Made by a program: the position numbers and the translations under genes
The notes under the pieces: generated by a model
What the model saw: only the letters and a program-made list of their open reading frames with translations
What the model was told of the DNA's origin: nothing
Database searches by the model: none
Virus record (IMG/VR): IMGVR_UViG_3300039106_000480
Location: 1-39,341 of that record
Origin: a virus
Length of the DNA: 39,341 nucleotides
Strand: one strand, 5' to 3'
Shown: positions 782 through 22,895 of the stretch, in pieces
How the letters are laid out: every line of letters starts with the position of its first letter
Position numbering within the stretch: position 1 is the first letter of the stretch

Positions 782-1630
782 TTAAAATTCATCGATTACC
801 TCGATTAAATTTTTCAATCGATTGGCTATCATGTAATTCATAAAATGTTGTTTATTTTTTACTTCCACACTATCGTATGTATGTAAAATAGAATTTACAA
901 TTTTATCGGGAATCTTAGAGAGATCGATCATCATTGAATTTCTGATGTAATTTCGATGCATTTCTTCGGTACAGAATTCGTTTGGTTCTTGATTAGTCCA
1001 GGTATTAACATCCGTTGTTTTGATCGGTTTTTGGCGGCCGCCTTCAACAAAGACATTATCTGTTGAGAGAATATTAGGAACACCGTCGCCTTTGTCACCA
1101 CGAATAACGTGTTCTTTCAGAAAAGAATAAGGATTGTCTTCTTTAATATGTTTTTTGAGAATAGGTGAATATTGACTGACATTCTTAAATTTCTGAAGTT
1201 GTGCAAAGTCTTTATCAGATGACAGAATCATAATTTTTTGTGTTGCAGAAAACTTTTGTGAAAGAACTGCAATAATATCATCTGCTTCACAGGTTTCTAC
1301 ACTAATAACTTTATATGGTGAATTCTGTTTTAGTTCATCACGAACTTTAGCGAGACAATCAAAGATAGCAGCCCAATCATGCCCGCTACTGTCACGAGCT
1401 TTTTTACGACCTGCTTTGTAGTATGGAAAAATTTCACGGCGCCAGTAATTTTTATCATCGCAGGCAATTACGACTTCTGGTCCATGAGTGTTTTTAAACT
1501 TCTTCACATATGTCCGAATCGTATTCAAAATCATGTGACGTACTAGATTTTCATCGACGGCTGATTTTGAAGATCCGATTTGTTCCATCAAGTTAGAAAT
1601 AGCAACTTGATTGTAATCAAAAATAATCAT
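782..1630 (-). CDS. rnh: T4 RNase H-like 5'-3' exonuclease (FEN family)
   Basis: A 282-residue FEN/PIN-like nuclease related to T4 RNase H, which removes RNA primers and flaps during lagging-strand synthesis. Acidic metal-binding positions are visible: D5 near the N-terminus, the ACDD motif near residue 58, CEADD near 115, SSDKDF near 138 and RGDKGDGVPN near 180. The last is the helix-3-turn-helix region. It overlaps the upstream 1627-2703 gene by ATGA, so both come from the promoter at about 2.75 kb. Confidence 0.88.
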   Translation of the reverse strand: MIIFDYNQVAISNLMEQIGSSKSAVDENLVRHMILNTIRTYVKKFKNTHGPEVVIACDDKNYWRREIFPYYKAGRKKARDSSGHDWAAIFDCLAKVRDELKQNSPYKVISVETCEADDIIAVLSQKFSATQKIMILSSDKDFAQLQKFKNVSQYSPILKKHIKEDNPYSFLKEHVIRGDKGDGVPNILSTDNVFVEGGRQKPIKTTDVNTWTNQEPNEFCTEEMHRNYIRNSMMIDLSKIPDKIVNSILHTYDSVEVKNKQHFMNYMIANRLKNLIEVIDEF

Positions 1631-2703
1631 TTAATAATCCTTAGTAGAATCACTTCTTTATTGATACGACCATTAAGAGCGATTTCAACGGCCTTTAGTT
1701 TAGTCAGAGCATTACGAAGAAACACTTTACCACCAGTCAAAACTTCTGGTAGAAATTCTTGTGGCTTGCGAACAGTTTTTTGTACAGATTTCGATTCATC
1801 AAAATTCTGCAAAGTGCTGCCCTTGACAGAAATACCTTCTACATCTTTTGCATGATACACACCAACTTTTCGATTCTTGACGTTATAAACCCAAACTTGT
1901 GCAGCACCAACAATTTCTTTGGGACTAACAGATTTCAGATTGAGTTCATCAAACTTTTCACAGTAGTTAAGTTTTTTAACAAGTTCGTCGGCAGTCTTAA
2001 CTTTACGTTTACGAGGTTTTTTGGTTTTTACTGTTTGTCCAATAATAATATTACAATCAACAATGATTTGATCGACAAAAGAAATTACTTTTTTAAGTTC
2101 TGTCTTTTTGAAGTTAGACCAACCTTCTTTCAGAAGTTCATCTTTAGTGTCAAGAGCTTCTGCGAACTCTTCACGCCTTTTCTTGAAGTGTTCAATAATC
2201 GATTTTGCATGAAGTGCTTTCGCACGATCTTGCATTACACCAAGAGGCGAGAAGTTTGTTTTGAACTCGCTTTGAATATAATCATCGATCATACCCTCGA
2301 GGTCACCAATAATTTCAGAAATCTTGTCAGCAAGACGTTCTTGAATCGAAACAACAGGTTTTTCTTTTTCGATTTTTACGATTTGATTTTTAGATTCGAA
2401 CAAAACATCATTTACGATTTCGTTGAATTTAACTTGATCGACAGATGACAGAACGCCACCGTTTGTCACGATTCGACAAACGAAACCAAAAGTTGCGGGA
2501 CGACTCTTTAGTGAAGAATCGTTAATTGTGATTTTGTGTTTTTTGCGGAAAAAATCGCTTGCGTATTTGTATGAATCTTTAGACAAACGATTTTGTGAAT
2601 ACCAGTTCAGAGTTTTGACGAGTTCGAATTTTTCTAGTTCACGATTGAATTTAGGCTCGGCACCAGAAAAAACTTCATTGGCATCAAGAACACGATTTTT
2701 CAT
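1627..2703 (-). CDS. Conserved T4-like phage protein, unknown function
   Basis: I chose the internal ATG at 2703 because it has a GGAGA ribosome site and lies downstream of a consensus promoter; a longer frame would start inside that promoter. The 358-residue product is Lys/Glu-rich and largely helical in the middle. It has a basic KTKKPRKRKVK stretch near residues 225-235. The C-terminal third (YNVKNRKVGVYHAKD, LTGGKVFLRNALTKL) is better conserved-looking and mixed alpha/beta. No catalytic motif was recognised. It sits directly upstream of RNase H in one transcript. Confidence 0.8.
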   Translation of the reverse strand: MKNRVLDANEVFSGAEPKFNRELEKFELVKTLNWYSQNRLSKDSYKYASDFFRKKHKITINDSSLKSRPATFGFVCRIVTNGGVLSSVDQVKFNEIVNDVLFESKNQIVKIEKEKPVVSIQERLADKISEIIGDLEGMIDDYIQSEFKTNFSPLGVMQDRAKALHAKSIIEHFKKRREEFAEALDTKDELLKEGWSNFKKTELKKVISFVDQIIVDCNIIIGQTVKTKKPRKRKVKTADELVKKLNYCEKFDELNLKSVSPKEIVGAAQVWVYNVKNRKVGVYHAKDVEGISVKGSTLQNFDESKSVQKTVRKPQEFLPEVLTGGKVFLRNALTKLKAVEIALNGRINKEVILLRIIK

Positions 2704-2725
2704 TACATTCTCCATGAATGATACT

Positions 2726-2989: not shown

Positions 2990-3065
2990 TGGTCCGACCG
3001 GCAGGAATCGAACCTGCGACTCTCTGCTTAGAAGGCAGATGCTCTATCCACTGAGCTACGGTCGG
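2990..3065 (-). tRNA. tRNA-Arg (UCU)
   Basis: A 76-nt cloverleaf with encoded CCA end. The anticodon loop CTTCTAA gives anticodon UCU. The 7-bp acceptor and the T-arm (TTCGATT) are complete. It reads AGA, a codon frequent in this A+T-rich genome. Confidence 0.95.
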
Positions 3066-3072
3066 AATATTC

Positions 3073-3147
3073 TGGAGCGGATAGCCAGATTTGAACTGGT
3101 CCTCTTTGGCTTGGAAGGCCAAGGCACAACCCCTATACCATACCCGC
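3073..3147 (-). tRNA. tRNA-Gly (UCC)
   Basis: A 75-nt cloverleaf with encoded CCA. The anticodon loop CTTCCAA gives UCC. The acceptor GCGGGTA pairs with TATCCGC with one G-U pair. Its 5' base overlaps the last base of the upstream YkuK-like gene stop codon. Confidence 0.95.
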
Positions 3148-3617
3148 TATGCTGCTAAAACAGTCTTCAATCTATCTGCTGCATATGAAGCAGCAAAAGC
3201 ATTTGGTTTTACCAGTGGAGTTACATTACAAGTTCCTTTGACATAACCAATTGCTTGTTGAACTACACAAGACGATCCATATTTTTCATTAGGATTAATA
3301 TCAAGATGCACTTCAACATACCTATCTTGAAGAACATCAGAAAGTTTATGAAACATTTCTGATACTTTAAAAACTTCATTCATCAAACGCATCGATGGTT
3401 TATTTTTGCTTTGATCATAATCTCTTTCACGAACAACTTCACCAAAGACTTTACAACCATGTCTACCACCTATATGAACAACGATTGCAATAGTGTAGTC
3501 TGCATACCAAACATCTTTGTAATTGATTCTTTCTGAATCTGCGCCCAAATAAATTTTAGTTTCTGGTGGTTGTGATTCTATAAATTTTTTAACTTCTTCA
3601 AGATTTAGTTCGCGCAT
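3147..3617 (-). CDS. YkuK-like RNase H-fold protein
   Basis: A 156-residue protein matching the RNase H-like YkuK family (formerly DUF458), also common in T4-like cyanophages. Supporting segments are IYLGADSER near residue 22 (the first acidic strand), RERDYDQSKNKPSMRLMNEV in the middle and VEVHLDINPNEKYGSS near 100. The conserved Asp residues suggest a metal-dependent nuclease fold, but activity is unproven for this family. Its stop codon touches the tRNA-Gly gene, so it and the two tRNAs are probably co-transcribed. Confidence 0.8.
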   Translation of the reverse strand: MRELNLEEVKKFIESQPPETKIYLGADSERINYKDVWYADYTIAIVVHIGGRHGCKVFGEVVRERDYDQSKNKPSMRLMNEVFKVSEMFHKLSDVLQDRYVEVHLDINPNEKYGSSCVVQQAIGYVKGTCNVTPLVKPNAFAASYAADRLKTVLAA

Positions 3618-3641
3618 TCATATCTCTTTTATCTTTATATA

Positions 3642-5087
3642 TTACATTTCACGATATTGAATAGTCTTAATAAAGATTTTGATGTTTCCGTGTTTAGGTG
3701 GCACAAAAACTAGTTCTTTAGTATCAGACGGAAGATTATTCATCAATACAGAGAATGAATGAGTCATAGAATCTTTTGTATGAGTCTTCCTATGTTCTCC
3801 ATCAAGCATATTTAATTTACCAACAAATTTTTTGTTTGAATAAATTTTAACGACATATTTTCCAGTATGACGAATCGGACCAGTTTGAATATCCATCAAA
3901 ATTGGTCGACCTCGACTAAAAATTTGTGGTAGTTGAACTGTAAGATTCTGATCGTAAATTTCTCGACCAACATCAATATGCTTAGATGAAGTCAATGAAA
4001 CAGACGCAGATTTATATTCAATCTCACTTGGTGCATAAGACACATTTGTTGTCTTTTCTAGAATTTCTTGAATGCTCAAAGTGAAATTTGTACCATCAAC
4101 GTCTAGAAAGTTATATTGTTGTTTACCCCAATCACCTTTGGGATCTGGTTGCGGTTGACGATAGAAAGTCCAGATACGATCAATATTGCCATGATGCATA
4201 TAGAACATAGGATCAGCAGCAGCATTACGCAAAGTACCCATCGTTCGATTTTTACCAAATCGTGTACCGATCCAATCGTGCCCGTCATTGTGTGGACCTT
4301 GCTCCATAAGACCTTGACCTGTTTGACGATCAGTAACTGGCTTACCACCAAATTGTTCAAACGGAACAGTCAGCATCAACTCAATATATTCTTTGCTCAT
4401 GTAGTTTAATGTTTCTGCAACATGATTTTTAGAATCTTGAGTCAGTTCATTCTCCGGATTCATATCTGATTTGTCAATTGTTGGTCCACGATTGCCATCA
4501 TACAACGCACTATTGTCAAAACCAAGACCATCATCAGACACCATGTTTTCTAGCGTTCGATCATAACCAAAGAATGGGCTTAATAGACCTTGCTCTTCGC
4601 GCTCGCGTGTATTTGGCATCTTCTTATGTACAGTCCAATCCCAATAAGGAAGCGCAAATTTACTGCCATCTAATCCTTGTTGAACAAGCGAGTATGCAAG
4701 AATGCGTTCTAAAAAATATAGATACCCACGATGCCATGGTAGAAAATGCCATGACCAATGAACTGGTGGATGATCGTCATCTGCTTCTGTACAATGAAGC
4801 GCATGAAGTTTTGCGTAATTGTCCCATTGCCGAGCATCAAGCAATTTAAAATTATTACGCATATAACCAACTGCTTTCATAAATGTTTTTAGTTCATCAT
4901 CTGTGAGATCATAAAAACTTTTACGAATACGTTGTGGCTCTTTTGATGGGTCGAAAGTTTTACCCGCTTGAATGTGGTGTGAACTATGATCGCCCGAAAT
5001 ATTAATTTTAGGAACGATCATAGTAACACCTGCACCTGCTACAGCACCAGCACCAACTTTAAAGAAATCCCTACGATTTGTACTCAT
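3642..5087 (-). CDS. Tat-exported tyrosinase / polyphenol oxidase (type-3 copper)
   Basis: A complete 481-residue type-3 copper oxidase. Residues 1-25 form a Tat signal with a twin arginine (RRDFF) and an Ala/Gly-rich core. CuA ligands appear to be H95, H110 and H119 (PWHRGYLYFLERIL); C99, four residues after H95, matches the plant-type thioether Cys. CuB ligands are H266, H270 and the HH pair at 298-299 (DPMFYMHHGNIDRIW). Residues 320-340 resemble the plant PPO DWL linker, followed by a C-terminal beta domain to 481. Members of this family oxidise phenols or catechols with O2. A folded, exported oxidase is highly unusual in a phage. An AAGG site precedes the ATG. Confidence 0.9.
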   Translation of the reverse strand: MSTNRRDFFKVGAGAVAGAGVTMIVPKINISGDHSSHHIQAGKTFDPSKEPQRIRKSFYDLTDDELKTFMKAVGYMRNNFKLLDARQWDNYAKLHALHCTEADDDHPPVHWSWHFLPWHRGYLYFLERILAYSLVQQGLDGSKFALPYWDWTVHKKMPNTREREEQGLLSPFFGYDRTLENMVSDDGLGFDNSALYDGNRGPTIDKSDMNPENELTQDSKNHVAETLNYMSKEYIELMLTVPFEQFGGKPVTDRQTGQGLMEQGPHNDGHDWIGTRFGKNRTMGTLRNAAADPMFYMHHGNIDRIWTFYRQPQPDPKGDWGKQQYNFLDVDGTNFTLSIQEILEKTTNVSYAPSEIEYKSASVSLTSSKHIDVGREIYDQNLTVQLPQIFSRGRPILMDIQTGPIRHTGKYVVKIYSNKKFVGKLNMLDGEHRKTHTKDSMTHSFSVLMNNLPSDTKELVFVPPKHGNIKIFIKTIQYREM

Positions 5088-5147
5088 AATATAACCTTTT
5101 TATTTTCAAAAACGAAGATTAATCTTCATTCATTATAATCATTGTAT

Positions 5148-5588
5148 CTATTTTGTCGCTTTTGTTGCGGTAATTTTGTTTTCGCCTTTTGTGACTGTAA
5201 CTTTATCACCATCAACAACAACGCTCATTGGTTCATTCGAATCGTTAAGTTGTTGAATAAGATCCTGAATAATTCTAATCTCAGGCTTCTCTTCTTTTTC
5301 TTTTGTGCTTGTAATTCCAGATAACATACCAATCATAGCCATTACTGCTGTAGAAACAAGACCTATTACTGCTGGTAATGATTCAGATGGCAAAAATGCA
5401 CTAGATGCTACACCAACAATAACCAATAGAACGATCCACGGAATAGCGGTTTTACCAATATACTTACTTGCTACTTCTTTTGCTGTGGATGTTGCTTCTA
5501 ATTTATTTAATTCAATATCAGCATTAGTTTTAACAAGAGTTATTTCTGCTCTTGTAACTTTACGTTCTGTATTATTGTTTTCTTCCAT
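5148..5588 (-). CDS. Two-TM membrane protein
   Basis: A 146-residue protein. A polar, charged N-terminus (about 45 residues) is followed by two hydrophobic helices around 50-68 and 74-95, then a Lys/Glu-rich cytoplasm-like tail with a short VVVDGDKVTVTK strand. The ATG at 5588 lies 10 bases from AGGAG; a GTG two codons upstream is an alternative. It lies directly before the tyrosinase gene. The two-helix layout resembles small phage membrane proteins, but no holin family is recognised. Confidence 0.65.
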   Translation of the reverse strand: MEENNNTERKVTRAEITLVKTNADIELNKLEATSTAKEVASKYIGKTAIPWIVLLVIVGVASSAFLPSESLPAVIGLVSTAVMAMIGMLSGITSTKEKEEKPEIRIIQDLIQQLNDSNEPMSVVVDGDKVTVTKGENKITATKATK

Positions 5589-5618
5589 TATCACACTTCT
5601 CCTATAAAAATGTGTGAT

Positions 5619-5630
5619 ATTATTTATGGA
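5619..5630 (-). promoter_or_regulatory. Possible T4-type late promoter (ATAAATA-like)
   Basis: The minus strand carries CCATAAATAATA about 30 bases upstream of the two-TM gene. This resembles the T4-like late element TATAAATA, and there is no TTGACA element at the proper distance. A single weak match, so low confidence. Confidence 0.25.
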
Positions 5631-5649
5631 AGTTTACCATTAACTAAAT

Positions 5650-5726
5650 TGGTCCGAGTGGAGAGATTCGAACTCCCGACCCATTGGTCCCAAACCAATT
5701 GCGCTACCTGACTACGCTACACTCGG
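5650..5726 (-). tRNA. tRNA-Pro (UGG)
   Basis: A 77-nt cloverleaf with encoded CCA. The anticodon loop TTTGGGA gives UGG. The acceptor CCGAGTG pairs fully with CACTCGG. It lies alone between the rubredoxin and the two-TM membrane gene. Confidence 0.95.
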
Positions 5727-5739
5727 TGTATAATATAAT

Positions 5740-5868
5740 TTATACTAGATCGTAATCTTCTTTTCCACAACCACATTCTGGACAAAGAAAATCATCGGGT
5801 AGTTCATCCCATTTACCTTCTGTTGCTTCATCGTGAACGTGCCCACAAACTAAACATACATGATCCAT
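5740..5868 (-). CDS. Rubredoxin
   Basis: A 42-residue protein, below usual ORF cut-offs. It has both rubredoxin knuckles: CLVCGHVHDE near residues 5-14 and CPECGCGKEDY near 29-39. The diagnostic GKWDELPDDFLCP segment lies between them. Four Cys (5, 8, 29, 32) should hold one iron. A strong GGAG site sits 6 bases before the ATG. With the SGNH gene between them, it follows a rubrerythrin that lacks its own rubredoxin domain, so it is the likely electron donor for that diiron protein. Confidence 0.85.
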   Translation of the reverse strand: MDHVCLVCGHVHDEATEGKWDELPDDFLCPECGCGKEDYDLV

Positions 5869-5877
5869 GATATCTCC

Positions 5878-6273
5878 TTATTTTGCTTTTTCTACAATGT
5901 CTTTATAACCAGCCCAAGATGGGTGGATTTTATCGGCTTGTAAACCTGTAATTGGAATTACAGTATCACCATTTTTTGCAGCAATGTCTTTTACAATCTC
6001 TTGAATGTTTGGTTTGATTGCAGGTAGAATCCAAAACACTTTAGTTGCTTTGACTTTTGCCCTAGTCTTTTCAAGTTCTTCTCGGGTTTTCACACCTGCA
6101 TGATCATTAGTTCCCAAAGAGATGATGACAGTATTGGCAGTCAGATCATTCTTCAAATAATCTCTGTTCCATTGCCAAGTATTCCATCCACCTTTTGAAT
6201 AACTAACACATTCTTTTTTAAATTGATGAGTACCTACAGCAATACTATCACCAATAATTAAACAGTCAATCAC
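5878..6273 (-). CDS. Small SGNH/GDSL hydrolase
   Basis: A 131-residue minimal SGNH hydrolase. Block I is IIGDSIAVG (Ser about residue 9), block III is SLGTNDH near 52 and block V is DKIHPSW near 114 with the Asp-x-x-His dyad. Blocks are complete although the protein is shorter than most members. There is no signal peptide, so it probably acts inside the cell or in the virion. Its start overlaps the rubrerythrin stop by ATGA. Acyl or acetyl ester substrate unknown. Confidence 0.8.
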   Translation of the reverse strand: MIDCLIIGDSIAVGTHQFKKECVSYSKGGWNTWQWNRDYLKNDLTANTVIISLGTNDHAGVKTREELEKTRAKVKATKVFWILPAIKPNIQEIVKDIAAKNGDTVIPITGLQADKIHPSWAGYKDIVEKAK

Positions 6274-6719
6274 AATGAAGCCTTAACTTCTTGATATGCT
6301 TGAGCATGACGCTTTTCAACTTTAGCAAGAGCAGCAAAACGCTTTTCTGCTTTTGCAAGAACCTGTTTGAATTGTTCTGCGTGTTCTTTTGATTCTTGTG
6401 CTTGCATTTTGGCTTCTTCTGCTGCTAATGCGTCACCTTCTTCAACAGCGATTGCTTGGAAGTTTGGATACATTTCTGTATATTCATATGTCTCGCCTTC
6501 AATAGCAAGATCAAGACATTCTTTTGTTGAAGGTTTACCAATTAGGAGTTCTAGATGACTCCATGCATGAAGCAATTCTTGATCGGCCGTATGCCAGAAG
6601 TGTTTTGCAACTTCTTCAAAACCTTCTTCACGCGCAATCTTGGCGAAGTATCGATACTTGATATGAGCCATTGATTCACCAGCAAGGGCGCTTTCAAGAT
6701 TTTTAATAGTTAGTGACAT
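6270..6719 (-). CDS. Rubrerythrin-like diiron (ferritin-like) protein
   Basis: A 149-residue ferritin-like four-helix protein. The ATG at 6719 is chosen for its GGAG site. Iron-ligand pattern: E in ALAGESMAHIKY (helix 1), ExxH in ADQELLHAW (helix 2), E in EGETYEYTEMYP (helix 3) and ESKEHAEQF (helix 4). Rubrerythrins reduce peroxide using a diiron site. This one lacks the usual C-terminal rubredoxin domain, which is encoded as a separate small gene at 5740-5868. It probably protects the infected cell from peroxide or O2; that role is inferred. Confidence 0.85.
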   Translation of the reverse strand: MSLTIKNLESALAGESMAHIKYRYFAKIAREEGFEEVAKHFWHTADQELLHAWSHLELLIGKPSTKECLDLAIEGETYEYTEMYPNFQAIAVEEGDALAAEEAKMQAQESKEHAEQFKQVLAKAEKRFAALAKVEKRHAQAYQEVKASL

Positions 6720-6750
6720 TATAATCTCCATTAAAGTTAATAATAAAACT

Positions 6751-6838
6751 TGGCGGAAGCGGTGAGATTCGAACTCACGGACCCTTTTGGATCTTCAGTT
6801 TTCAAGACTGACGGATTAAACCTCTCTCCCACACTTCC
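6751..6838 (-). tRNA. tRNA-Ser (UGA)
   Basis: An 88-nt class II tRNA with long variable arm and encoded CCA. The anticodon loop CTTGAAA gives UGA. The acceptor GGAAGTG pairs with CGCTTCC. Confidence 0.95.
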
Positions 6839-6844
6839 AATAAT

Positions 6845-6919
6845 TGGTGCCCCAGGAGAGATTCGAACTCCCGACCTACTGATTACAAATCAGTTGCACT
6901 ACCACTGTGCTACTGAGGC
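6845..6919 (-). tRNA. tRNA-Thr (UGU)
   Basis: A 75-nt cloverleaf with encoded CCA. The anticodon loop TTTGTAA gives UGU. Confidence 0.95.
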
Positions 6920-6923
6920 AATT

Positions 6924-6997
6924 TGGTGGAGGTAGAGAGAATCGAACTCTCACGAAGAGCTTGCAAAGCTCCCAGGCTCCCATTACATCATACCCCC
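6924..6997 (-). tRNA. tRNA-Ala (UGC)
   Basis: A 74-nt cloverleaf with encoded CCA. The anticodon loop TTTGCAA gives UGC. The acceptor GGGGGTA pairs with TACCTCC; the G-U pair is at position 3-70, the alanine identity pair. Confidence 0.95.
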
Positions 6998-7005
6998 AAT
7001 ATTCC

Positions 7006-7080
7006 TGGCTCCAGAGGTTGGGATCGAACCAACGACCCACGGATTAACAGTCCGTTGCACTACCGCTGTGCTACTCTGGA
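7006..7080 (-). tRNA. tRNA-Asn (GUU)
   Basis: A 75-nt cloverleaf with encoded CCA. The anticodon loop CTGTTAA gives GUU. The acceptor TCCAGAG pairs with CTCTGGA. Confidence 0.95.
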
Positions 7081-7095
7081 TTAAAAATCTATATA

Positions 7096-7172
7096 TGGTA
7101 CCCAAGGTGGGACTCGAACCCACATAACCTTGATTTTGAGTCAAGTATGTATACCAATTCCATCACTTGGGC
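7096..7172 (-). tRNA. tRNA-Leu (CAA), short variable arm
   Basis: A 77-nt cloverleaf with encoded CCA. The anticodon loop CTCAAAA gives CAA (UUG codon). The D-arm GGAATTGGTAtACA is leucine-like. Between the anticodon and T stems there are only five bases (GTTAT), where leucine tRNAs normally carry a long class II arm. Position 1-72 is a G-U pair. The identity follows the anticodon and D-arm. Confidence 0.8.
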
Positions 7173-7180
7173 ATTTAATA

Positions 7181-7267
7181 TGGTGGATGCGGATGGATTC
7201 GAACCACCAGCGTTTCTTATGTCACAGATTTACAGTCTGCTGCCTTCAACCGTTTGGCTACGCATCC
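7181..7267 (-). tRNA. tRNA-Tyr (GUA)
   Basis: An 87-nt class II tRNA with long variable arm and encoded CCA. The anticodon loop CTGTAAA gives GUA. The acceptor GGATGCG pairs with CGCATCC. Confidence 0.93.
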
Positions 7268-7408
7268 ATATTGAAACATACTCTCTTCGGACTTTCACCG
7301 AAGAATATCCCACTCTTTCGAATCTTACCCTGCTTTTACAGGTTGCTTTCTAGATTGATCCGGATCTTACTAGAAAGTTTCGGGATTTTAAAATATGTTT
7401 CAATATGG
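7266..7408 (-). ncRNA. Unassigned structured element inside tRNA cluster
   Basis: The gap between tRNA-Tyr and tRNA-Leu(UAA) is bounded by a perfect 15-bp inverted repeat (7266-7280 with 7394-7408). Inside are three hairpins: 7284-7290 with 7298-7304 (7 bp), 7329-7332 with 7339-7342 (4 bp) and 7346-7353 with 7370-7377 (8 bp, with a GATCCGGATC inner repeat). A further pairing joins 7307-7311 to 7383-7387. No reading frame fits. No known ribozyme or riboswitch consensus was recognised. It must be co-transcribed with the tRNAs. Confidence 0.55.
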
Positions 7409-7492
7409 TGCCCAAGACCGGAATCGAACCGGTACGCCCTTACGAGCGAGAGATTTTAAGTCTCTTGTGTCTACCTATTCCACCACTCGGGC
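7406..7492 (-). tRNA. tRNA-Leu (UAA)
   Basis: An 87-nt class II tRNA with encoded CCA and a normal long variable arm, unlike the neighbouring CAA isoacceptor. The anticodon loop CTTAAAA gives UAA. Confidence 0.95.
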
Positions 7493-7495
7493 ATC

Positions 7496-7572
7496 TGGTG
7501 TCTCCGGAGGGACTTGAACCCCCAACCAACGGATTATGAGTCCGCTGCTCTGACCAATTGAGCTACAGAGAC
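7496..7572 (-). tRNA. tRNA with CAU anticodon, probably tRNA-Ile2
   Basis: A 77-nt cloverleaf with encoded CCA. The anticodon loop CTCATAA gives CAU. The variable loop TTGGT and T-arm GGTTCAAGTCC match bacterial tRNA-Ile(CAU) rather than elongator tRNA-Met, which usually has GGTTCGAATCC. It is the first tRNA behind the promoter and lies directly downstream of a TilS gene, the enzyme that converts this anticodon to read AUA. Confidence 0.85.
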
Positions 7573-7593: not shown

Positions 7594-7621
7594 ATTATAC
7601 AGCATCCATCCTATTTGTCAA
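7594..7621 (-). promoter_or_regulatory. Sigma70-like promoter of the main tRNA cluster
   Basis: Minus-strand TTGACA (7616-7621), 16 bp, TATAAT (7594-7599), ending 22 bases before the first tRNA. The -35 box overlaps the last codons of tilS. No palindrome lies upstream, unlike the other promoters. Confidence 0.8.
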
Positions 7622-8231
7622 GCATTTTTTGATCGTTGTTTTCATACAACAACTTTAATTTCTTTTTTAAAACACTATGTAGTCCTGGATTGACTACCAA
7701 AGCATTCTCAACCATATTTTGTCGAATAAAATTTCTGGTATATTGTGTATCATGATTACTGGGATCATTAATATACACAATCTTTTTTCTTGATGCCCAA
7801 TCTTTAATCTTAGACTTTTCATTTAATAGAAAAGGTCTATACACATTATTTCTTTGATATGGAATTAGTGATGGTGTTCCATGCAAACAACTCCAGATCC
7901 AAGTTTCAACAACATCATCTAAATGATGACCAGTTACAACAAAATCAAATTGATCAAGAAACGCATATCGCTCTCTGCGCCAATATTCTTCTTTACTTTC
8001 TTCTTTTAATTTCTTTGAACCAATAGTACCAACAACTAGTGACAAAGAATTATTTTTGCAGTAGTGTCTTAGAAACGTTTCTGCATCATCACCATGAGGT
8101 GTTGCATGATTAAAGTATGCAACTTGCACCTCATGATTCTTTTTAAGAAAATCAAGAACAACCATACTGTCAACACCACCAGAACAAGCAACGGTAACGT
8201 TTCTTGGAATTTTACCTAGTAAATTCAGCAT
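7611..8231 (-). CDS. tilS: tRNA(Ile)-lysidine synthase, catalytic domain only
   Basis: A 206-residue N-type ATP pyrophosphatase. The PP-loop SGGVDS is at about 17-22, GHHLDDVVET at 101-110, YRPFL near 131 and DPSNHDTQYTRNFIR near 156-170, all TilS signatures. Bacterial TilS is usually 320-430 residues; the C-terminal tRNA-binding domains are missing, giving a catalytic-core version. TilS adds lysine to C34 of tRNA-Ile(CAU). The promoter of the tRNA cluster that starts with a CAU tRNA lies in its 3' end. It is coupled by TGATG to the upstream 8231-8488 gene. Confidence 0.88.
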   Translation of the reverse strand: MLNLLGKIPRNVTVACSGGVDSMVVLDFLKKNHEVQVAYFNHATPHGDDAETFLRHYCKNNSLSLVVGTIGSKKLKEESKEEYWRRERYAFLDQFDFVVTGHHLDDVVETWIWSCLHGTPSLIPYQRNNVYRPFLLNEKSKIKDWASRKKIVYINDPSNHDTQYTRNFIRQNMVENALVVNPGLHSVLKKKLKLLYENNDQKMLDK

Positions 8232-11968: not shown

Positions 11969-12225
11969 TTTATTACTCCAAAATTTGCCGGAAATTTTCT
12001 TTCCGAGTTTTTTATAGAAAAGCCGATTTTGCTGCCGGAAAAATTTTTAGAAAAGATTCGTTAGAGAGAATTCGAAATTGATTCGTTGGTCTAAGAGATC
12101 CCTTAAGGCCACACCCTGGAACACCGATGAGACTCTGGTGGCTGTCTTCCAGCGGTTTCCGATCGGTTGTAGTGCCTGGTCCGGCAGGTGGAGACCACCC
12201 CCACCCCACCGGTAAAAAATTCCAA
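11969..12225 (-). other. Intergenic boundary of the GC-rich island
   Basis: About 257 bases with no convincing gene. The right half (12110-12225) is GC-rich, the left half AT-rich, so the composition switch lies here. The minus strand carries a G-run cluster, GGTGGGGTGGGGGTGG, at about 12199-12214 that could form a G-quadruplex. No promoter of the module type is present. Confidence 0.5.
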
Positions 12226-12414
12226 TTAGGCCACCTGGCTCGCACGGAACTCCAACTCCTCCAGCGCAGCAACCAGGGCTACCCTACCACGCCTCTCCAG
12301 TTTGGTGCTAACTGCCATTGCCAGCGCCTTGCTATACCCTTGTGCCATCATGGCATCACGCACCATGGCACCAAGCTCCAATCGATCCAGTTTGGTTTTG
12401 AACAGGTCAACCAT
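12226..12414 (-). CDS. Small hypothetical protein
   Basis: A 62-residue helical protein (VDLFKTKLDRLELGAMVRDAMMAQGYSKALAMAVSTKLERRGRV). Its ATG forms TAATG with the stop of the alternative frame of the previous gene, which supports both. Function unknown. Confidence 0.6.
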   Translation of the reverse strand: MVDLFKTKLDRLELGAMVRDAMMAQGYSKALAMAVSTKLERRGRVALVAALEELEFRASQVA

Positions 12415-12445
12415 TAGAACTCCCCATCGAAGTAGTCATTGTCCA

Positions 12446-12688
12446 TCACATAGTCCTCGTCCACACCCCAACCAGCACTAGCCAATGCGCATCACCATCA
12501 GCCTCGAGGTCGGAGATATACTGGTCACGTTCCTCGTTCATGGCGAGTTCAGCCTCACGTTGGATCACCGAGACTGCATCCACCACCAGGTACCTAGGTA
12601 CACCAAGGCGCTCCGCAATCTCCTGCACACCAACGTCCTGGTACCACAGGTCCTCAATCTCCATCATCAGGTCAGCCATGCGACTCAT
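12446..12688 (-). CDS. HTH-like phage protein with apparent frameshift
   Basis: The frame gives 80 residues: a helical N-terminus, then VGVQEIAERLGVPRYLVVDAV, a likely helix-turn-helix. After EADGDA the frame reads HWLVLVGVWTRTM. The neighbouring frame instead reads LASAGWGVDEDY...DGEF and stops at 12414, directly overlapping the next ATG. That tail looks like the natural C-terminus, so one base appears missing or two extra near 12480-12490. TAAGGAG precedes the ATG. Confidence 0.6.
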   Translation of the reverse strand: MSRMADLMMEIEDLWYQDVGVQEIAERLGVPRYLVVDAVSVIQREAELAMNEERDQYISDLEADGDAHWLVLVGVWTRTM

Positions 12689-12698
12689 TAGGTACTCC

Positions 12699-12782
12699 TT
12701 AAACCATCAAAAAGGCAAGGGTTGCAAAGATGATGCCGAAGAGGGCACCACCGAGGAATTCCATCACTTTGTTTTTCATCAT
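12699..12782 (-). CDS. Tiny one-TM peptide, probably leaderless
   Basis: A 27-residue peptide: MMKNKVMEF then a hydrophobic helix (LGGALFGIIFATLAFLMV). The first ATG is exactly seven bases after the -10 box, so transcription should begin at or next to it and no ribosome site is available. It is followed by a strong TAAGGAG for the HTH-like gene. Confidence 0.5.
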   Translation of the reverse strand: MMKNKVMEFLGGALFGIIFATLAFLMV

Positions 12783-12788
12783 GGAACC

Positions 12789-12838
12789 ATTATAGCATGA
12801 TTCAGGTAAAGGTCAAGACCTGTTGCGTTTAGGCAACA
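12789..12838 (-). promoter_or_regulatory. Palindrome-promoter module
   Basis: Minus-strand TTGACC (12811-12816), 16 bp, TATAAT (12789-12794). Palindrome TGTTGC-N6-GCAACA at 12821-12838, containing the stop codon of the upstream gene. Gap 4-5 bp. Confidence 0.8.
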
Positions 12839-13071
12839 ACCGCCTCATACCCCATCTTTTTGGCTTTGGCTTTACCGAATTCGACAATCGCGTCTGCCGC
12901 AGGACCCAGAGCCTTGATATCCTTAGCAACCGTCTTGGCGGGAACACCGTAAACCCAGCTGATCCAGTCACGACCATCGGCATCGCGGCCGTAGGTGCCA
13001 TCCCATACGAAACTCGCTTCGGTCAGAGCCACGCGCCAGATTGCTGCTTCATAGGACTTGGTAGGTTTCAT
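12829..13071 (-). CDS. Hypothetical protein in GC-rich island
   Basis: 80 residues from the ATG at 13071, chosen for AAGGAG six bases upstream; an in-frame ATGATG lies at the predicted transcript start. Sequence MKPTKSYEAAIWRVALTEASFVW..GRDADGRDWISWVYGVP, then a helical tail. The stop codon lies in the loop of the next palindrome. Unassigned. Confidence 0.65.
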   Translation of the reverse strand: MKPTKSYEAAIWRVALTEASFVWDGTYGRDADGRDWISWVYGVPAKTVAKDIKALGPAADAIVEFGKAKAKKMGYEAVVA

Positions 13072-13098
13072 TGTCATCTCCTTGTTCATCATGGTTCT

Positions 13099-13147
13099 AT
13101 TATAACTGGATCCAGGTAAAGGTCAAGTGGTGTTGTTTTTATGCAAC
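13099..13147 (-). promoter_or_regulatory. Palindrome-promoter module
   Basis: Minus-strand TTGACC (13121-13126), 16 bp, TATAAT (13099-13104). Imperfect palindrome 13132-13147, gap 5 bp, enclosing the stop of 13139-13345. Confidence 0.8.
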
Positions 13148-13345
13148 CAGACTGTACCGAACTCGGGCCAGTTTGAAGGCATCGATGAACCAATGTTCAC
13201 CAGTCTCGGTATCTCGGACCAGAACCTCATCGCGGGTGGCTTCTGATTCCACATCCACCACAACCAGCGATCCATTGGCACCACTTGCGAGCACATAGAC
13301 CTGACCGACTTCGATTCCGTATTTTTGGTATGCTTCCATGATCAT
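13139..13345 (-). CDS. Conserved phage protein, small beta fold
   Basis: 68 residues from ATG 13345 (TGATG overlap with the upstream gene). Pattern VGQVYVLASGANGSLVVVDVESEATRDEVLVRDTETGEHWFIDAFKLARVRY is a recurrent small phage protein resembling a KOW/SH3-like barrel. Function unknown. Confidence 0.65.
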   Translation of the reverse strand: MIMEAYQKYGIEVGQVYVLASGANGSLVVVDVESEATRDEVLVRDTETGEHWFIDAFKLARVRYSLVA

Positions 13346-13608
13346 CACTTGAAAACGATAAGAGCCAGAAGGAGGGTATTGGCCAGGAACCCGATGGCGT
13401 TGGATGCTACCCCAAGGCGGTCATTGATACCAATGGCACGGAGCAGGAAGAGGAACAAACCAGCCCAGACCAACAGCACCATACTGATAGGCGGCATGGT
13501 CACCTCGTAACCTAGTGCGGCCTTGATCGTGGTAGGTAGGGTAGCAGAGTGGATCAGAACCATTCCAATCCAACCAGCAGTCTCGCTAGGGTTGATCCAG
13601 ATCCTCAT
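13345..13608 (-). CDS. Membrane protein, three hydrophobic segments
   Basis: 87 residues with hydrophobic stretches near 10-25, 40-58 and 68-86. TAATG start overlap with the upstream gene. Not recognised; a small inner-membrane protein is the safest call. Confidence 0.6.
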   Translation of the reverse strand: MRIWINPSETAGWIGMVLIHSATLPTTIKAALGYEVTMPPISMVLLVWAGLFLFLLRAIGINDRLGVASNAIGFLANTLLLALIVFK

Positions 13609-13868
13609 TAGGCGCTCCAGTACGCTTCGCTATCGGGACGGCAGCACCAGGGGGTATCAGCAGGGATCACCACAGGCTCACCAGTCATCAGGCTTTTCAC
13701 CGTGATATACTCATCGGCCTTCTTGGCGACCAGGTCACGGTAGATACCGATATCGCCCATCGTGTAACCAGCACCGAGTTTGGCGACCAGGTTGATAGCC
13801 GACTTGGCGTAGGTGTAGGTCTTTTCGACCCTCAGAGTCTCGGTATGGTAGACCACGTATCCAGCCAT
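13608..13868 (-). CDS. Conserved phage protein (SLMTGEPV..ETYWSA type)
   Basis: 86 residues from ATG 13868, with AAGGA nine bases upstream. The C-terminal pattern VKSLMTGEPVVIPADTPWCCRPDSEAYWSA is common to small proteins of many phages. A YxVYxTET N-terminus is also shared. Function unknown. Confidence 0.7.
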   Translation of the reverse strand: MAGYVVYHTETLRVEKTYTYAKSAINLVAKLGAGYTMGDIGIYRDLVAKKADEYITVKSLMTGEPVVIPADTPWCCRPDSEAYWSA

Positions 13869-13901
13869 GGGTTTCTTTCCTTGTTCGTTCATCATGGAAC
13901 C

Positions 13902-13960
13902 ATTATAGCAGGTTCCAGGTAAAGGTCAACTACCGTAGGCACTGTTGTTTTTAAGCAACA
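13902..13960 (-). promoter_or_regulatory. Palindrome-promoter module, long-gap class
   Basis: Minus-strand TTGACC (13924-13929), 16 bp, TATAAT (13902-13907). Palindrome TGTTG..CAACA 13943-13960, 14 bp upstream of the -35 box. The gap contains TACCGTAGG. Confidence 0.8.
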
Positions 13961-14325
13961 ACCTTGGATCGGATGTAACCAAAGGGAAGACCAAGGTTGT
14001 ATTCCAGGAACTCCATATCGCCGTTAGTCTCAAAGGCCTCGTCCAACCAGCGGATCGCCATAGCACGGTTGCGGGCACCGAGTTCCCTCAGACCATAGAT
14101 CCGTTCCTCGAAGTCCTTGATCGCTTGCGCTTCCTGTTGTTCCCGCTGGTCTTCCTGCTCACCGATACGGGCACCAAGGCGCTGGAACTCAGCCTCGAAG
14201 TCCGCCTCAGTCCAATCCGAAACGTCATTGGTCGGGCGGAACCCATAGGCGTCCTTGAACATATCAGAGTAGGTCACGCCGTATTGTTCCAGCGTGGTCA
14301 TCTGATCCCAGGGCTTGAAGGGCAT
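13951..14325 (-). CDS. Conserved phage protein (YSDMFKDAYGFRP family)
   Basis: 124 residues from ATG 14325, with GGAGA upstream. The N-terminal YSDMFKDAYGFRP motif, a charged coiled-coil centre (residues about 45-75) and the C-terminal RWLDEAFETNGDMEFLEYNLGLPFGYI match a widespread phage family of unknown function. The stop lies inside the next palindrome. Confidence 0.75.
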   Translation of the reverse strand: MPFKPWDQMTTLEQYGVTYSDMFKDAYGFRPTNDVSDWTEADFEAEFQRLGARIGEQEDQREQQEAQAIKDFEERIYGLRELGARNRAMAIRWLDEAFETNGDMEFLEYNLGLPFGYIRSKVVA

Positions 14326-14352
14326 TCTGTTCTCCGTTGTCATCATGGAACC

Positions 14353-14400
14353 ATTATAGCAGGTTCCAGGTAGAGGTCAATACCGTTGTTTTAAAACAAC
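14353..14400 (-). promoter_or_regulatory. Palindrome-promoter module with perfect palindrome
   Basis: Minus-strand TTGACC (14375-14380), 16 bp, TATAAT (14353-14358). Perfect palindrome GTTGTTTTAAAACAAC at 14385-14400, gap 4 bp. Confidence 0.85.
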
Positions 14401-14401
14401 A

Positions 14402-14746
14402 TCAGCATCCACGCTGGTATCCAATGATGTTCCCATAGGGGTCATAGACTGGAATGCCCAGGCAGACTGGATGGCCAAACAGGTTGTAGACTGTACCAGA
14501 TTGGTCCATGTAATTCTGAGGTGCTGCCGGTGCACAGGAAGGGCAATGAACCACCTGTCCGGTGTATGGGCTGACCTGAGGGTAACCATTGTATCCATAG
14601 GGGTGTGGATGAACCACTCGTGGCATCAAAGCACCAGCGACAACGGCACCAACCACGACCGCACCAACCGTGCGTCCAAACGATCCATGGGCATGGCTAT
14701 TGAAGGTCATACCAGCGATTGCACAGGCTACAATAAATTTTTTCAT
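14402..14746 (-). CDS. Secreted Gly/Tyr-rich protein
   Basis: 114 residues from the ATG at 14746 (MKKFIVACAIAGMTFNSHAHG), a Sec signal likely cleaved after AHA. A second hydrophobic stretch (VGAVVVGAVVAGALM) follows. The rest is rich in Gly/Tyr/Pro with four Cys (two in CPSC, VCLG, and the C-terminus). Possibly periplasmic or outer-membrane associated. Family not recognised. Confidence 0.6.
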   Translation of the reverse strand: MKKFIVACAIAGMTFNSHAHGSFGRTVGAVVVGAVVAGALMPRVVHPHPYGYNGYPQVSPYTGQVVHCPSCAPAAPQNYMDQSGTVYNLFGHPVCLGIPVYDPYGNIIGYQRGC

Positions 14747-14750
14747 GGTC

Positions 14751-14930
14751 TTAGAAGGAAGGTTCCTGAACTGGAATTCCATACTCATCCTCGTCCGGAA
14801 TCACCTCATTGGCGGCTAGCATATCCCGAACATCATCTTGGCTCATCCACTTGGCGGCCATGATTAGAGCCTCACGGGCATCCAGGATCCCATCGTCAAC
14901 CAGTTCGATTAGGTAGTCACGGTAGTCCAT
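14751..14930 (-). CDS. Small conserved phage protein
   Basis: 59 residues from ATG 14930 (AGAGGA upstream). MDYRDYLIELVDDGILDAREALIMAAKWMSQDDVRDMLAANE is a small helical family found in many phages. TGATG overlap with the upstream gene; function unknown. Confidence 0.65.
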   Translation of the reverse strand: MDYRDYLIELVDDGILDAREALIMAAKWMSQDDVRDMLAANEVIPDEDEYGIPVQEPSF

Positions 14931-15091
14931 CAGTATTCCTCTCGGTAGCATTCGTCATACTCCGCACGATTCAAGGCTTCCAGCCAGTTCTCGTATGCAA
15001 TCATTTCGGAGTAGGTCATCAGTTGGTCATAGTCTTCCAACTCCAGATCAATCAGGATGCAATCGGCCAGAGTGTATCGAAGTTCGGTCAT
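14930..15091 (-). CDS. Small acidic hypothetical protein
   Basis: 53 residues, Glu/Asp/Tyr-rich (LADCILIDLELEDYDQLMTYSEMIAYENWLEAL). AAGGAG lies six bases before the ATG. First gene of a three-gene unit behind the module at 15.1 kb. Confidence 0.6.
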   Translation of the reverse strand: MTELRYTLADCILIDLELEDYDQLMTYSEMIAYENWLEALNRAEYDECYREEY

Positions 15092-15115
15092 TCCAGGCTC
15101 CTTCATCATGGTTGT

Positions 15116-15161
15116 ATTATAACTGGATTGGTAGAATTGTCAATTGTTGTTTTTATACAAC
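15116..15161 (-). promoter_or_regulatory. Palindrome-promoter module
   Basis: Minus-strand TTGACA (15138-15143), 16 bp, TATAAT (15116-15121). Palindrome GTTGT-N6-ACAAC at 15146-15161, gap 2 bp. A 21-codon GTG frame ends with its TAA in this palindrome. Confidence 0.8.
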
Positions 15162-15229
15162 GAAGGGGCACCAGATAACTTGCGGTTGTTTAAGAGTAGG
15201 CGGTATTGGTACCGCCACTCCCCCGTATC

Positions 15230-15505
15230 TTAGGCCGCCATTGCGACGACCGTAACCTTACTCGGGCGCTTCGCCACCCGCTTGGCCTTGACGCCAACAG
15301 GACCAGTCAGTTTCGCCAGCCGAGCCTTAGCCCGTTGGATCGCGGCATCCTGTTTGGCCTGTCGCTTGGCTTCACGGGCTTCCTTAGCATTGATTCGCTC
15401 CTGAGCCACAACGGCCTTGAGTTCCTTCACCTGCTGCCGAAGGGCCTTGATCATCGCCAGTTTCGATTGCAGAAGCTCCACATTGGCCGATTTTGCTTTC
15501 GCCAT
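15230..15505 (-). CDS. Basic coiled-coil protein
   Basis: 91 residues, very rich in Ala/Lys/Arg. A continuous heptad-like helix covers residues 8-70 (LLQSKLAMIKALRQQVKELK), followed by a basic tail. It may bind nucleic acid. AAGGAGTAGTAAAA precedes the ATG. Confidence 0.6.
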   Translation of the reverse strand: MAKAKSANVELLQSKLAMIKALRQQVKELKAVVAQERINAKEAREAKRQAKQDAAIQRAKARLAKLTGPVGVKAKRVAKRPSKVTVVAMAA

Positions 15506-15517
15506 TTTTACTACTCC

Positions 15518-15727
15518 TTACACCAGATTTTTGTTGATGAGGAAGAGAAATTCCTGCTCCAGGGCTTTCCTCTTGGCCTTGGGCAGTTGGTCGATCACAC
15601 CTTGGAACATAGACTGAAGGTACCCCAGAGTGTAGGCGCTGGCGTCCCTACTGTCCCACCCTTGGGATTCTCGCTTGGCGCGGATCGCATTGACCAGGAC
15701 TTCCAGGGTGTTCGGTTCGTATCGCAT
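15518..15727 (-). CDS. Hypothetical phage protein
   Basis: 69 residues from ATG 15727 with AAGGAA upstream. Central DSRDASAYTLGYLQSMFQGVI resembles other small phage proteins of unknown role. It has its own promoter module. Confidence 0.6.
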   Translation of the reverse strand: MRYEPNTLEVLVNAIRAKRESQGWDSRDASAYTLGYLQSMFQGVIDQLPKAKRKALEQEFLFLINKNLV

Positions 15728-15760
15728 TGTGGTGTTTCCTTGTTCGTTCATCATGGTGCT

Positions 15761-15807
15761 ATTATGACAGGACACCAGCATCCTGTCAAGTGTCGTTTTT
15801 ACGCAAC
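15761..15807 (-). promoter_or_regulatory. Palindrome-promoter module, degenerate palindrome
   Basis: Minus-strand TTGACA (15784-15789), 17 bp, CATAAT (15761-15766). A weakened palindrome (GTTGCG..CGAC) at 15792-15807, gap 2 bp, holds the upstream stop. Confidence 0.7.
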
Positions 15808-16023
15808 ATCCAGTTGGACCTGCAAACCTTCCCAGATACCAGCAATTCCTTTCGTGGTACCGATGCTACAGTATTCCATGGAGTCCAGCGCCTTCTGTAC
15901 AGCCGCATTGGTCTGGGTAAAATCACCAATTCCATTGCGGATCGTCTTCGCGGTGCTGTAGAAGCAGGCCTGTCCAATGATGACGCGGAACCGCTTGTTC
16001 GGGGGAAATCGCTTGATCGTCAT
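15799..16023 (-). CDS. Hypothetical phage protein
   Basis: 74 residues; AGGAACAAAGC precedes the ATG. The segment DFTQTNAAVQKALDSMEYCSIGTTKGIAGIWEGLQVQLDVA recurs in small phage proteins. Function unknown. Confidence 0.65.
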   Translation of the reverse strand: MTIKRFPPNKRFRVIIGQACFYSTAKTIRNGIGDFTQTNAAVQKALDSMEYCSIGTTKGIAGIWEGLQVQLDVA

Positions 16024-16055
16024 GCTTTGTTCCTCGTTTCGTTCAGTATGGAGTA

Positions 16056-16102
16056 ATTATAGCAGGATCTAGACGGTTGTCAAGATGTTGTTTTAAAACA
16101 AC
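16056..16102 (-). promoter_or_regulatory. Palindrome-promoter module with perfect palindrome
   Basis: Minus-strand TTGACA (16078-16083), 16 bp, TATAAT (16056-16061). GTTGTTTTAAAACAAC at 16087-16102, gap 3 bp. Confidence 0.85.
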
Positions 16103-16105
16103 ACC

Positions 16106-16258
16106 TCAGTAAGGCTTGACGTCGCCGATGTGGGCACCATCGCACCAGATAGAGCATTCGAATCCAGTGGCACGGGCGAAGTTCACGGCTTCCTCGAGTT
16201 CGGTGAATGCGCCTTTGTTCATCTGGAAATTAACAAGGTAGACGGTGTAGAGGTGCAT
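16106..16258 (-). CDS. Small hypothetical protein
   Basis: 50 residues from ATG 16258 with AAAGGGA upstream; an in-frame ATGATGAACGAA lies at the transcript start. MHLYTVYLVNFQMNKGAFTELEEAVNFARATGFECSIWCDG suggests a small alpha/beta fold. Confidence 0.55.
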   Translation of the reverse strand: MHLYTVYLVNFQMNKGAFTELEEAVNFARATGFECSIWCDGAHIGDVKPY

Positions 16259-16291
16259 CGCGGTCCCTTTCGTTTCGTTCATCATGGTTCT

Positions 16292-16340
16292 ATTATACAT
16301 GGATCCAGATGGTTGTCAACCCTTGTTGTTTTAAAACAAC
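16292..16340 (-). promoter_or_regulatory. Palindrome-promoter module with perfect palindrome
   Basis: Minus-strand TTGACA (16314-16319), 16 bp, TATAAT (16292-16297). GTTGTTTTAAAACAAC at 16325-16340, gap 5 bp. Confidence 0.85.
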
Positions 16341-16343
16341 AGG

Positions 16344-16670
16344 TCAGAAGTGTCCGTACACAATCGTATCGTTGGTCGATCCGACGTATTCACCACGATC
16401 GCACAAGTAGTCAATCACGCGGTCTTTGATTTCACCATCGTCGGTGCAATCGCTGATATCGATATCGAAATCGAATGCAATGGACTCAGGCTCGTCCTCA
16501 GCGAATTCACAGCAAAGACCGATAACGTCGAATTCAATGCTGGTCCCAGTATCCGCTTCAAGTTCCTCGAGGTAATTGAACAAAACCAGCAGTCCCTCAT
16601 CAGAAAAATTCTCAGGACGGATCGCCAGAAAGTCCGCTTTGAACTCAGAAAAACCAATCGTCTTTTGCAT
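16344..16670 (-). CDS. Acidic conserved phage protein
   Basis: 108 residues from ATG 16670 (GGAG upstream). Strongly acidic, with roughly a quarter Asp/Glu and few Lys/Arg. Family pattern: NFSDEGLLVLFNYLEELEADTGTSIEFDVIGLCCEFAE, acidic middle, then VIDYL and a C-terminal DTIVYGHF. Recurs in unrelated phages; the acidity recalls DNA-mimic anti-restriction proteins, but that is conjecture. Confidence 0.7.
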   Translation of the reverse strand: MQKTIGFSEFKADFLAIRPENFSDEGLLVLFNYLEELEADTGTSIEFDVIGLCCEFAEDEPESIAFDFDIDISDCTDDGEIKDRVIDYLCDRGEYVGSTNDTIVYGHF

Positions 16671-16702
16671 CACTTGCTCCGTTGTTCGTTCATCGTGAAA
16701 AC

Positions 16703-22447: not shown

Positions 22448-22642
22448 TTAATCGCGCTTTTTAGCACCTTCTTCATAGGCTGCTTTGATCCATGCAGTCA
22501 TCTTATCAAAATGCAGAGACGCAGATTTGTTCGGATTATACAGAATTGTCATAATATCGTCATAAAATCGTTCTGAACGAAGACCGAAATTTTCTACCTC
22601 GTTGAACCATTTATTAAATGATTTTTCTAGTTTTTTATTCAT
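22448..22642 (-). CDS. Small hypothetical protein, end of paralogue chain
   Basis: 64 residues from ATG 22642: NKKLEKSFNKWFNEVENFGLRSERFYDDIMTILYNPNKSASLHFDKMTAWIKAAYEEGAKKRD. Helical. Overlaps the preceding gene end. Unassigned. Confidence 0.6.
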   Translation of the reverse strand: MNKKLEKSFNKWFNEVENFGLRSERFYDDIMTILYNPNKSASLHFDKMTAWIKAAYEEGAKKRD

Positions 22643-22895
22643 TTTCATTCCCAAAATGTTCTTCAATTCGTTCGATTGCTAATAGCCTACCGTTGATCCA
22701 ACCTTGATTATAATCAGACAATTCAGTCTGAGAAAGTTTCATAATAAAATCTGGGCGCTTCAGAATATCGACGCATTCTGCGGCTGCCAATTTAGCAAAT
22801 TTATCTAGGTTGTTTAGCCAAGAATCGGCGTTGACATTATTGCCTAGCGGACCCCAAACTTGAACAGCCCATTGCAAAATTCGTTCACGATCCAT
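22635..22895 (-). CDS. Paralogue-chain protein (KFAxLxAxECVDIL type)
   Basis: 86 residues from the second ATG of the ATGATG. Central LDKFAKLAAAECVDIL and C-terminal RIEEHFGN relate it to the MNERI/HFGVE family of the next genes. GGAG in the end of the preceding gene serves as its ribosome site. Confidence 0.65.
   Translation of the reverse strand: MDRERILQWAVQVWGPLGNNVNADSWLNNLDKFAKLAAAECVDILKRPDFIMKLSQTELSDYNQGWINGRLLAIERIEEHFGNENE

Follow-up and report, generated by a model that had tools for sequence, protein, structure and literature searches.

A phage-borne gene that probably encodes a Tat-exported type-3 copper tyrosinase

Tyrosinases have been described in animals, plants, fungi and bacteria. 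What would the gene for such an enzyme do among the tRNA genes of a phage? We addressed this question in IMG/VR virus record IMGVR_UViG_3300039106_000480, classed as linear; the whole record of 39,341 nucleotides is here denoted the window. An open reading frame on the minus strand runs from an ATG start to a stop codon with zero internal stops and encodes 481 amino acids. Its product matches Pfam Tyrosinase PF00264 over residues 86-311 (E=3.9e-35, 122.6 bits against a cut-off of 22.6). The initial annotation had placed a full-length, phage-encoded type-3 copper oxidase of plant polyphenol oxidase (PPO) type at 3642-5087, and the reading frame, the Pfam match and the profile relatives described below bear out both the coordinates and the reading. 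We consider it probable that the phage carries this as an auxiliary gene whose product is a Tat-exported tyrosinase, one that may well be latent; the tyrosinase identity and the Tat signal are well supported by the sequence features listed here.

3642..5087, minus strand: tyrosinase gene, whose product combines a Tat signal, a copper core and a beta domain at the C-terminus (open reading frame; PF00264; 19 homologous viral contigs)
5095..5101, minus strand: Shine-Dalgarno-like AAAAAGG, 7 nt upstream of the tyrosinase start (sequence)
4980..5087, minus strand: predicted Tat signal peptide, residues 1-36, NRRDFFK and a hydrophobic stretch (RRx[FL] in 14/14; hydropathy)
4731..4805, minus strand: CuA site, residues 95-119, with H95, C99, H110 and H119 (invariant in a 12-row alignment)
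4191..4304, minus strand: CuB site, residues 262-299, with E262, H266, N267, H270, D271, L286, H298 and H299 (invariant in the 12-row alignment)
3645..3992, minus strand: C-terminal beta domain, residues 366-481, a probable shielding domain (AlphaFold; Foldseek to latent aurone synthase)

The GC3 of the gene is 0.25, and the other genes of the window for which we measured GC3 span this value. In a promoter scan a -10/-35-like site came up in front of the gene, but such sites are no commoner there than in shuffled sequence.

The alignment assigned the copper ligands to H95, H110 and H119 at CuA and to H266, H270 and H299 at CuB; all six histidines, which had been claimed at the outset, are present and invariant in the 12 rows. 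Equally invariant are H298 (the seventh histidine), E262 (the waterkeeper) and L286 (the gatekeeper position). C99, the sole cysteine of the window protein, stands four residues after HisA1 (HxxxC) and does not vary either. This is the spacing of plant PPOs, and C99 is a candidate for the thioether cysteine of plant type that had been proposed. In CgAUS the thioether-linked pair is Cys97/His116 (PMC8049008). Mean pairwise identity is highest at the copper sites (0.75 for CuB and 0.65 for CuA) and falls to 0.30 for the C-terminal domain and 0.25 for the signal stretch. Two AlphaFold runs, with 12 and 17 rows, both modelled the copper core at low confidence (mean pLDDT 47).

Monophenolase activity tends to go with a Glu waterkeeper and an Asn/Asp after HisB1/HisB2 (PMC8049008, PMC7693034). 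With E262, N267 and D271 the window protein falls on the tyrosinase side of this comparison with catechol oxidases, which describes a tendency and no strict rule. The residues imply O2-driven oxidation of mono- and diphenols. The protein is not a MelC2 tyrosinase of the actinobacterial kind by model NF047834, scoring 55.7 bits against an equivalog cut-off of 450. Could it be a catechol oxidase, or an O2-binding hemocyanin-like protein, instead? Activity class is not readable with certainty from sequence alone, and hemocyanins rank first in sequence searches; with the family profile, however, they rank above plant PPOs because of their repeated domains, and the best single-domain solved relatives are polyphenol oxidases, namely aurone synthase (E=2e-36) and grape PPO (E=2e-33). 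As the three residues associated with monophenolase activity are also invariant, we regard this alternative as unlikely, and a tyrosinase remains the preferred reading.

AlphaFold placed a beta domain at residues 369-480 and predicted eight strands in the C-terminal domain, with block pLDDT of about 54-85. Foldseek ranked latent aurone synthase first, over the full length of the protein, with E=8e-9 but a TM of 0.3. Because of the predicted beta fold and this first rank, the domain is probably the shielding domain of latent polyphenol oxidases. Pfam PPO1_KFDV gave zero matches on the window domain and a weak match on the verrucomicrobial tyrosinase L055. Since that match is missing and the domain is only about 30% conserved, latency is an uncertain part of our reading.

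A scan of IMG/VR for close relatives recovered two contigs; profile and motif-segment scans raised the total to 19 further contigs, and one extra scan added none. A search for viral tyrosinases flanked by T4-like genes had been proposed with the initial annotation, and two of these 19 contigs, of 109 and 297 kb, also carry a T4-type portal gene. The Pfam search found one tyrosinase per record, with no stop inside, in 20/20 viral contigs. Collapsing near-identical contigs reduced the 20 to 14 distinct tyrosinases. The gene is present in at least 13 phage lineages besides that of the window. Full-length phage tyrosinases are 47-61% identical to that of the window, the nearest (61%) being on contig L002 (IMGVR_UViG_3300042505_001009). 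Where dS could be measured, pairs gave a dN/dS of 0.08-0.18, with the more divergent of these pairs near saturation; the tyrosinase gene is under purifying selection. In a tree that included two distant bacterial tyrosinases as outgroups, both on very long branches, only the window with L002, that pair with L003, and L004 with L009 are firm groups, and most forks are unsupported.

Two divergent members used as queries gave zero matches in 50,697 phage records, and the best plasmid match covered 69% of the query at 29% identity. The open-access literature, to which our search was confined, describes no phage tyrosinase. Both the phage-record search and the literature search agree with the earlier statement that no characterised phage example was known. 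The enzyme class is known; what is new, within the reach of these searches, is a recurrent and largely phage-borne tyrosinase subfamily that carries an export signal.

The window protein begins with MSTNRRDFFK, followed by a hydrophobic stretch. Pfam TAT_signal matched it weakly and under its cut-off (E=0.005). Among the 66 minus-strand window ORFs of at least 80 amino acids, the tyrosinase alone has RRx[FLI] within its first 20 residues. The motif RRx[FL] occurs in 14/14 distinct phage N-termini, and the remaining signal is only about 25% conserved; that the motif is kept in all 14 despite so variable a signal argues for selected Tat export. The initial annotation had reported an intact twin-arginine signal, and the sequence bears this out. 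On L012 a cysteine follows the hydrophobic stretch (TTAC), possibly marking a lipoprotein variant. A Tat signal implies that the enzyme would fold and load copper in the cytoplasm before export.

The gene lies between tRNA genes, as had been noted, with tRNA-Gly (3073-3147) and tRNA-Pro (5650-5726) on either side; the window has eleven tRNA genes, all inside 2990-7572. Its nearest neighbours are:

5650..5726, minus strand: tRNA-Pro (tgg), upstream of the tyrosinase (tRNA search)
5148..5594, minus strand: upstream gene, a possible membrane protein with a holin-like match under cut-off (profile match)
3147..3617, minus strand: RNase H-like gene downstream (phrog_11311, PF04308), with a homolog also in L002 (family match)
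3073..3147, minus strand: tRNA-Gly (tcc), downstream of the tyrosinase (tRNA search)
1627..2709, minus strand: phrog_11903 gene, whose L003 homolog directly adjoins the tyrosinase (PHROG match)

Phage families around the tyrosinase comprise an exonuclease (phrog_107), phrog_11903, phrog_11311, PhoH, ribonucleotide reductase subunits, a DNA primase and an endolysin. The window primase has matches in 2,357 phage records, including many T4-type phages of enterobacteria and cyanobacteria, and is nearest to that of the Methylophilales phages Melnitz (41.5%). The genome had been called T4-like; gene content (replication and metabolism genes of T4-superfamily type, with the primase, ribonucleotide reductase, PhoH and exonuclease) speaks for this, and the T4 portal, for which we searched, is absent from the 39-kb window fragment.

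These neighbours bear on whether the gene belongs to a phage at all. A chimeric or mis-classified contig that carries a bacterial gene is one alternative: the enzyme family is cellular in its characterised members, and there is one bacterial relative. Against this, 20 viral contigs of up to 297 kb carry the tyrosinase, two of them with a T4 portal; the neighbours in the window are phage families and tRNAs, GC3 matches, and L002 and L003 share gene families with the window. On L002 the RNase H-like homolog occurs in the same tRNA-rich stretch, where the tyrosinase starts 25 bases after a tRNA-Arg. Because the gene recurs, and because neighbours are common to the window, L002 and L003, we reject the contig chimera that had been named as a possible pitfall; a cellular origin of the contig is extremely improbable. 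Only slightly less improbable is that the tyrosinase is a virion component such as a tail-associated oxidase. On L009 the gene does follow large structural-looking genes, but in the window, L002 and L012 it lies among tRNA or DNA-metabolism genes, and a virion protein, put together in the cytoplasm, would not be expected to conserve a Tat signal.

When the neighbours were compared all against all, no partner gene, such as a copper chaperone or caddie protein, emerged across the family: only the tyrosinase is common to all, and the other shared genes are confined to close phage groups. We observed several further genes near the tyrosinases. The window encodes a rubrerythrin (6270-6719; PF02915, E=5e-17) about 1.2 kb upstream, rare in phages (8 records matched), and a PP-loop protein (ATP_bind_3, TilS-like; 7611-8231) that adjoins the tRNA cluster and possibly modifies phage tRNA. 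tmRNA genes lie near the tyrosinase at L003:5905-6437, L004:4596-4983, L006:14866-15246 and L010:5414-5813, and L003 also encodes an AMP-binding (acyl-CoA synthetase-like) enzyme (4493-5944). Elsewhere in the window, a DadA-like D-amino acid dehydrogenase (31253-32422; NF009074, E=9e-130, under cut-off; no PHROG match) lies between ribonucleotide reductase genes. At 12000-16700 the GC content is about 0.52, against about 0.36 around it, and this region holds a run of small minus-strand ORFs, several of them right after near-identical sigma70-like -10 boxes, CTGCTATAATGGTTCC / CAGTTATAATAGAACC; the run looks like a repeated early-promoter cassette. Several small paralogous-looking ORFs of the pattern MNERIxxLAxQAGF...EKFAELIVxEC lie at 22600-24700.

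What might the enzyme do for the phage? Because the phages carry a complete tyrosinase with an intact export signal, their hosts are probably made to oxidise phenols outside the cytoplasm. The sequences themselves display the intact reading frame, a complete active-site signature, the conserved Tat motif, purifying selection and recurrence across phages; we infer copper loading, activity, monophenolase ability and latency, as well as timing, host, habitat and benefit. The infected host would translate the phage gene, and the tyrosinase would fold and take up two coppers in the cytoplasm. The Tat pathway would then carry the folded enzyme into the periplasm or to the surface of the cell, where displacement or cleavage of the C-terminal shielding domain would yield active tyrosinase. 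Using O2, the activated enzyme would hydroxylate monophenols and convert catechols to o-quinones.

The neighbour comparison showed no family-wide gene partner favouring any reading of the benefit. The most likely benefit, which we put forward tentatively and with less than even confidence, is that inhibitory phenolics around the infected cell are removed or polymerised; we place it ahead of tanning of the host envelope. By the latter account the exported enzyme would turn surface tyrosines or catechols into quinones, and these would cross-link receptors or hide them, so that superinfection is blocked or the virocell becomes tougher. An enzyme with the Tat motif should reach the envelope; in several related loci, genes for secreted outer-membrane-barrel-like proteins lie a few kb off, which would fit envelope remodelling there; and the C-terminal domain weakly resembles lectin-like beta sandwiches in Foldseek. 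However, neither the window nor its closest relatives L002 and L003 have a barrel match, and the lectin-like matches, obtained with a poor model, also fit a latent-PPO domain; envelope tanning is rather unlikely. The barrel-like secreted proteins are found at L006:15337-16053 (Gcw_chp/TorF-like), L004:3129-3878, L010:7056-7775, L020:9395-10153, L024:5066-5776 and L029:12136-12849. We discarded a Gcw_chp/TorF barrel as a general tyrosinase partner, with PF09694 in only 4 near-identical contigs.

Melanin-like or quinone products could also protect from UV or radicals, or harm competing cells after export or lysis. This would fit known tyrosinase roles: for Streptomyces it has been proposed that an extracellular tyrosinase works against competitors and that an intracellular one detoxifies phenolics (PMC9454253). 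No feature of the loci speaks for such a role in particular, and we think it decidedly unlikely. Removal of phenolics is still our preferred benefit.

On L002, the contig of the closest tyrosinase relative, positions 411-1190 encode PmoC (PF04896, E=5e-122). Its nearest solved proteins are methane monooxygenases of gammaproteobacterial type (491 bits, against at most 248 bits for ammonia monooxygenases); the matched PDB entries are presumably gammaproteobacterial. A search of the tyrosinase contigs for pmoC/AmoC found L002 alone, and none on the window fragment. That the host of the window phage is a methylotroph is a guess. A broader proposal is that a mainly viral tyrosinase subfamily directly serves infection by remodelling the envelope or copper/O2/phenol chemistry, for example in superinfection exclusion by quinone cross-linking or, in the relatives with pmoC, to sustain copper-dependent methane oxidation, and that cellular copies (e.g. 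verrucomicrobial) may derive from phages; we rate its chances as low, roughly those of envelope tanning. A conserved, selected and exported copper oxidase in many phage lineages, one of them with pmoC nearby, would mean that viruses are able to steer the oxidation of phenols beyond the cytoplasm, with possible effects on how humic and phenolic carbon is turned over, on the outcome of infection and on superinfection.

Genome-collection scans found one bacterial relative, L005, on verrucomicrobial MAG contig VHCG01000074.1, 48% identical. It has the same active-site residues and Tat motif as the phage tyrosinases, but lies on a high-GC bacterial contig and has a longer C-terminal tail. We sampled 195 genomes of its phylum and 146 of its order and obtained no other full-length match, and a scan of the phylum Verrucomicrobiota found tyrosinases of any type in 4/289 genomes. 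Rarity in bacteria is provisional, because these scans use short peptide patterns and may miss relatives. The tree does not place L005 as donor or recipient.

Among characterised enzymes, plant PPOs and aurone synthase (4Z11/4Z12, 2P3X, 6HQI) have in common with the phage protein the HxxxC cysteine and a core with a beta-rich C-terminal domain. They carry a plastid transit peptide, whereas the phage protein has a bacterial Tat signal; they have two disulfides, whereas the single cysteine of the window protein leaves none for disulfides; their gatekeeper position is Phe and that of the phage protein Leu; and the phage C-terminal domain is not recognised by PPO1_KFDV. Tyrosinases built as zymogens are also known in bacteria, a freshwater lake isolate being one source (PMC9454253). 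Verrucomicrobium spinosum vsTyr (PDB 8BBQ, PMC10526336) resembles the phage protein in having a Tat signal, a tyrosinase core and an extension at the C-terminus, by which vsTyr is kept latent (PMC10526336), and in its Glu waterkeeper, Asn after HisB1 and Leu at the gatekeeper position. The vsTyr thioether is of the fungal-like CxH form (C84-H86; PMC10526336), whereas the phage family has its cysteine at the plant-like HxxxC position; the residue after HisB2 is Asn in vsTyr and Asp in the phage family; and vsTyr, a bacterial gene, scores under plant PPOs with the phage profile. Freshwater phages carrying pmoC are known and are assigned to methanotrophs (PMC7674155, whose main text makes no mention of tyrosinase). 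Like the phage tyrosinase, phage pmoC is a phage-borne gene for a copper enzyme or subunit, and L002 has both; the pmoC product is a subunit of a host membrane complex, whereas the phage tyrosinase would be a stand-alone enzyme with its own predicted Tat signal.
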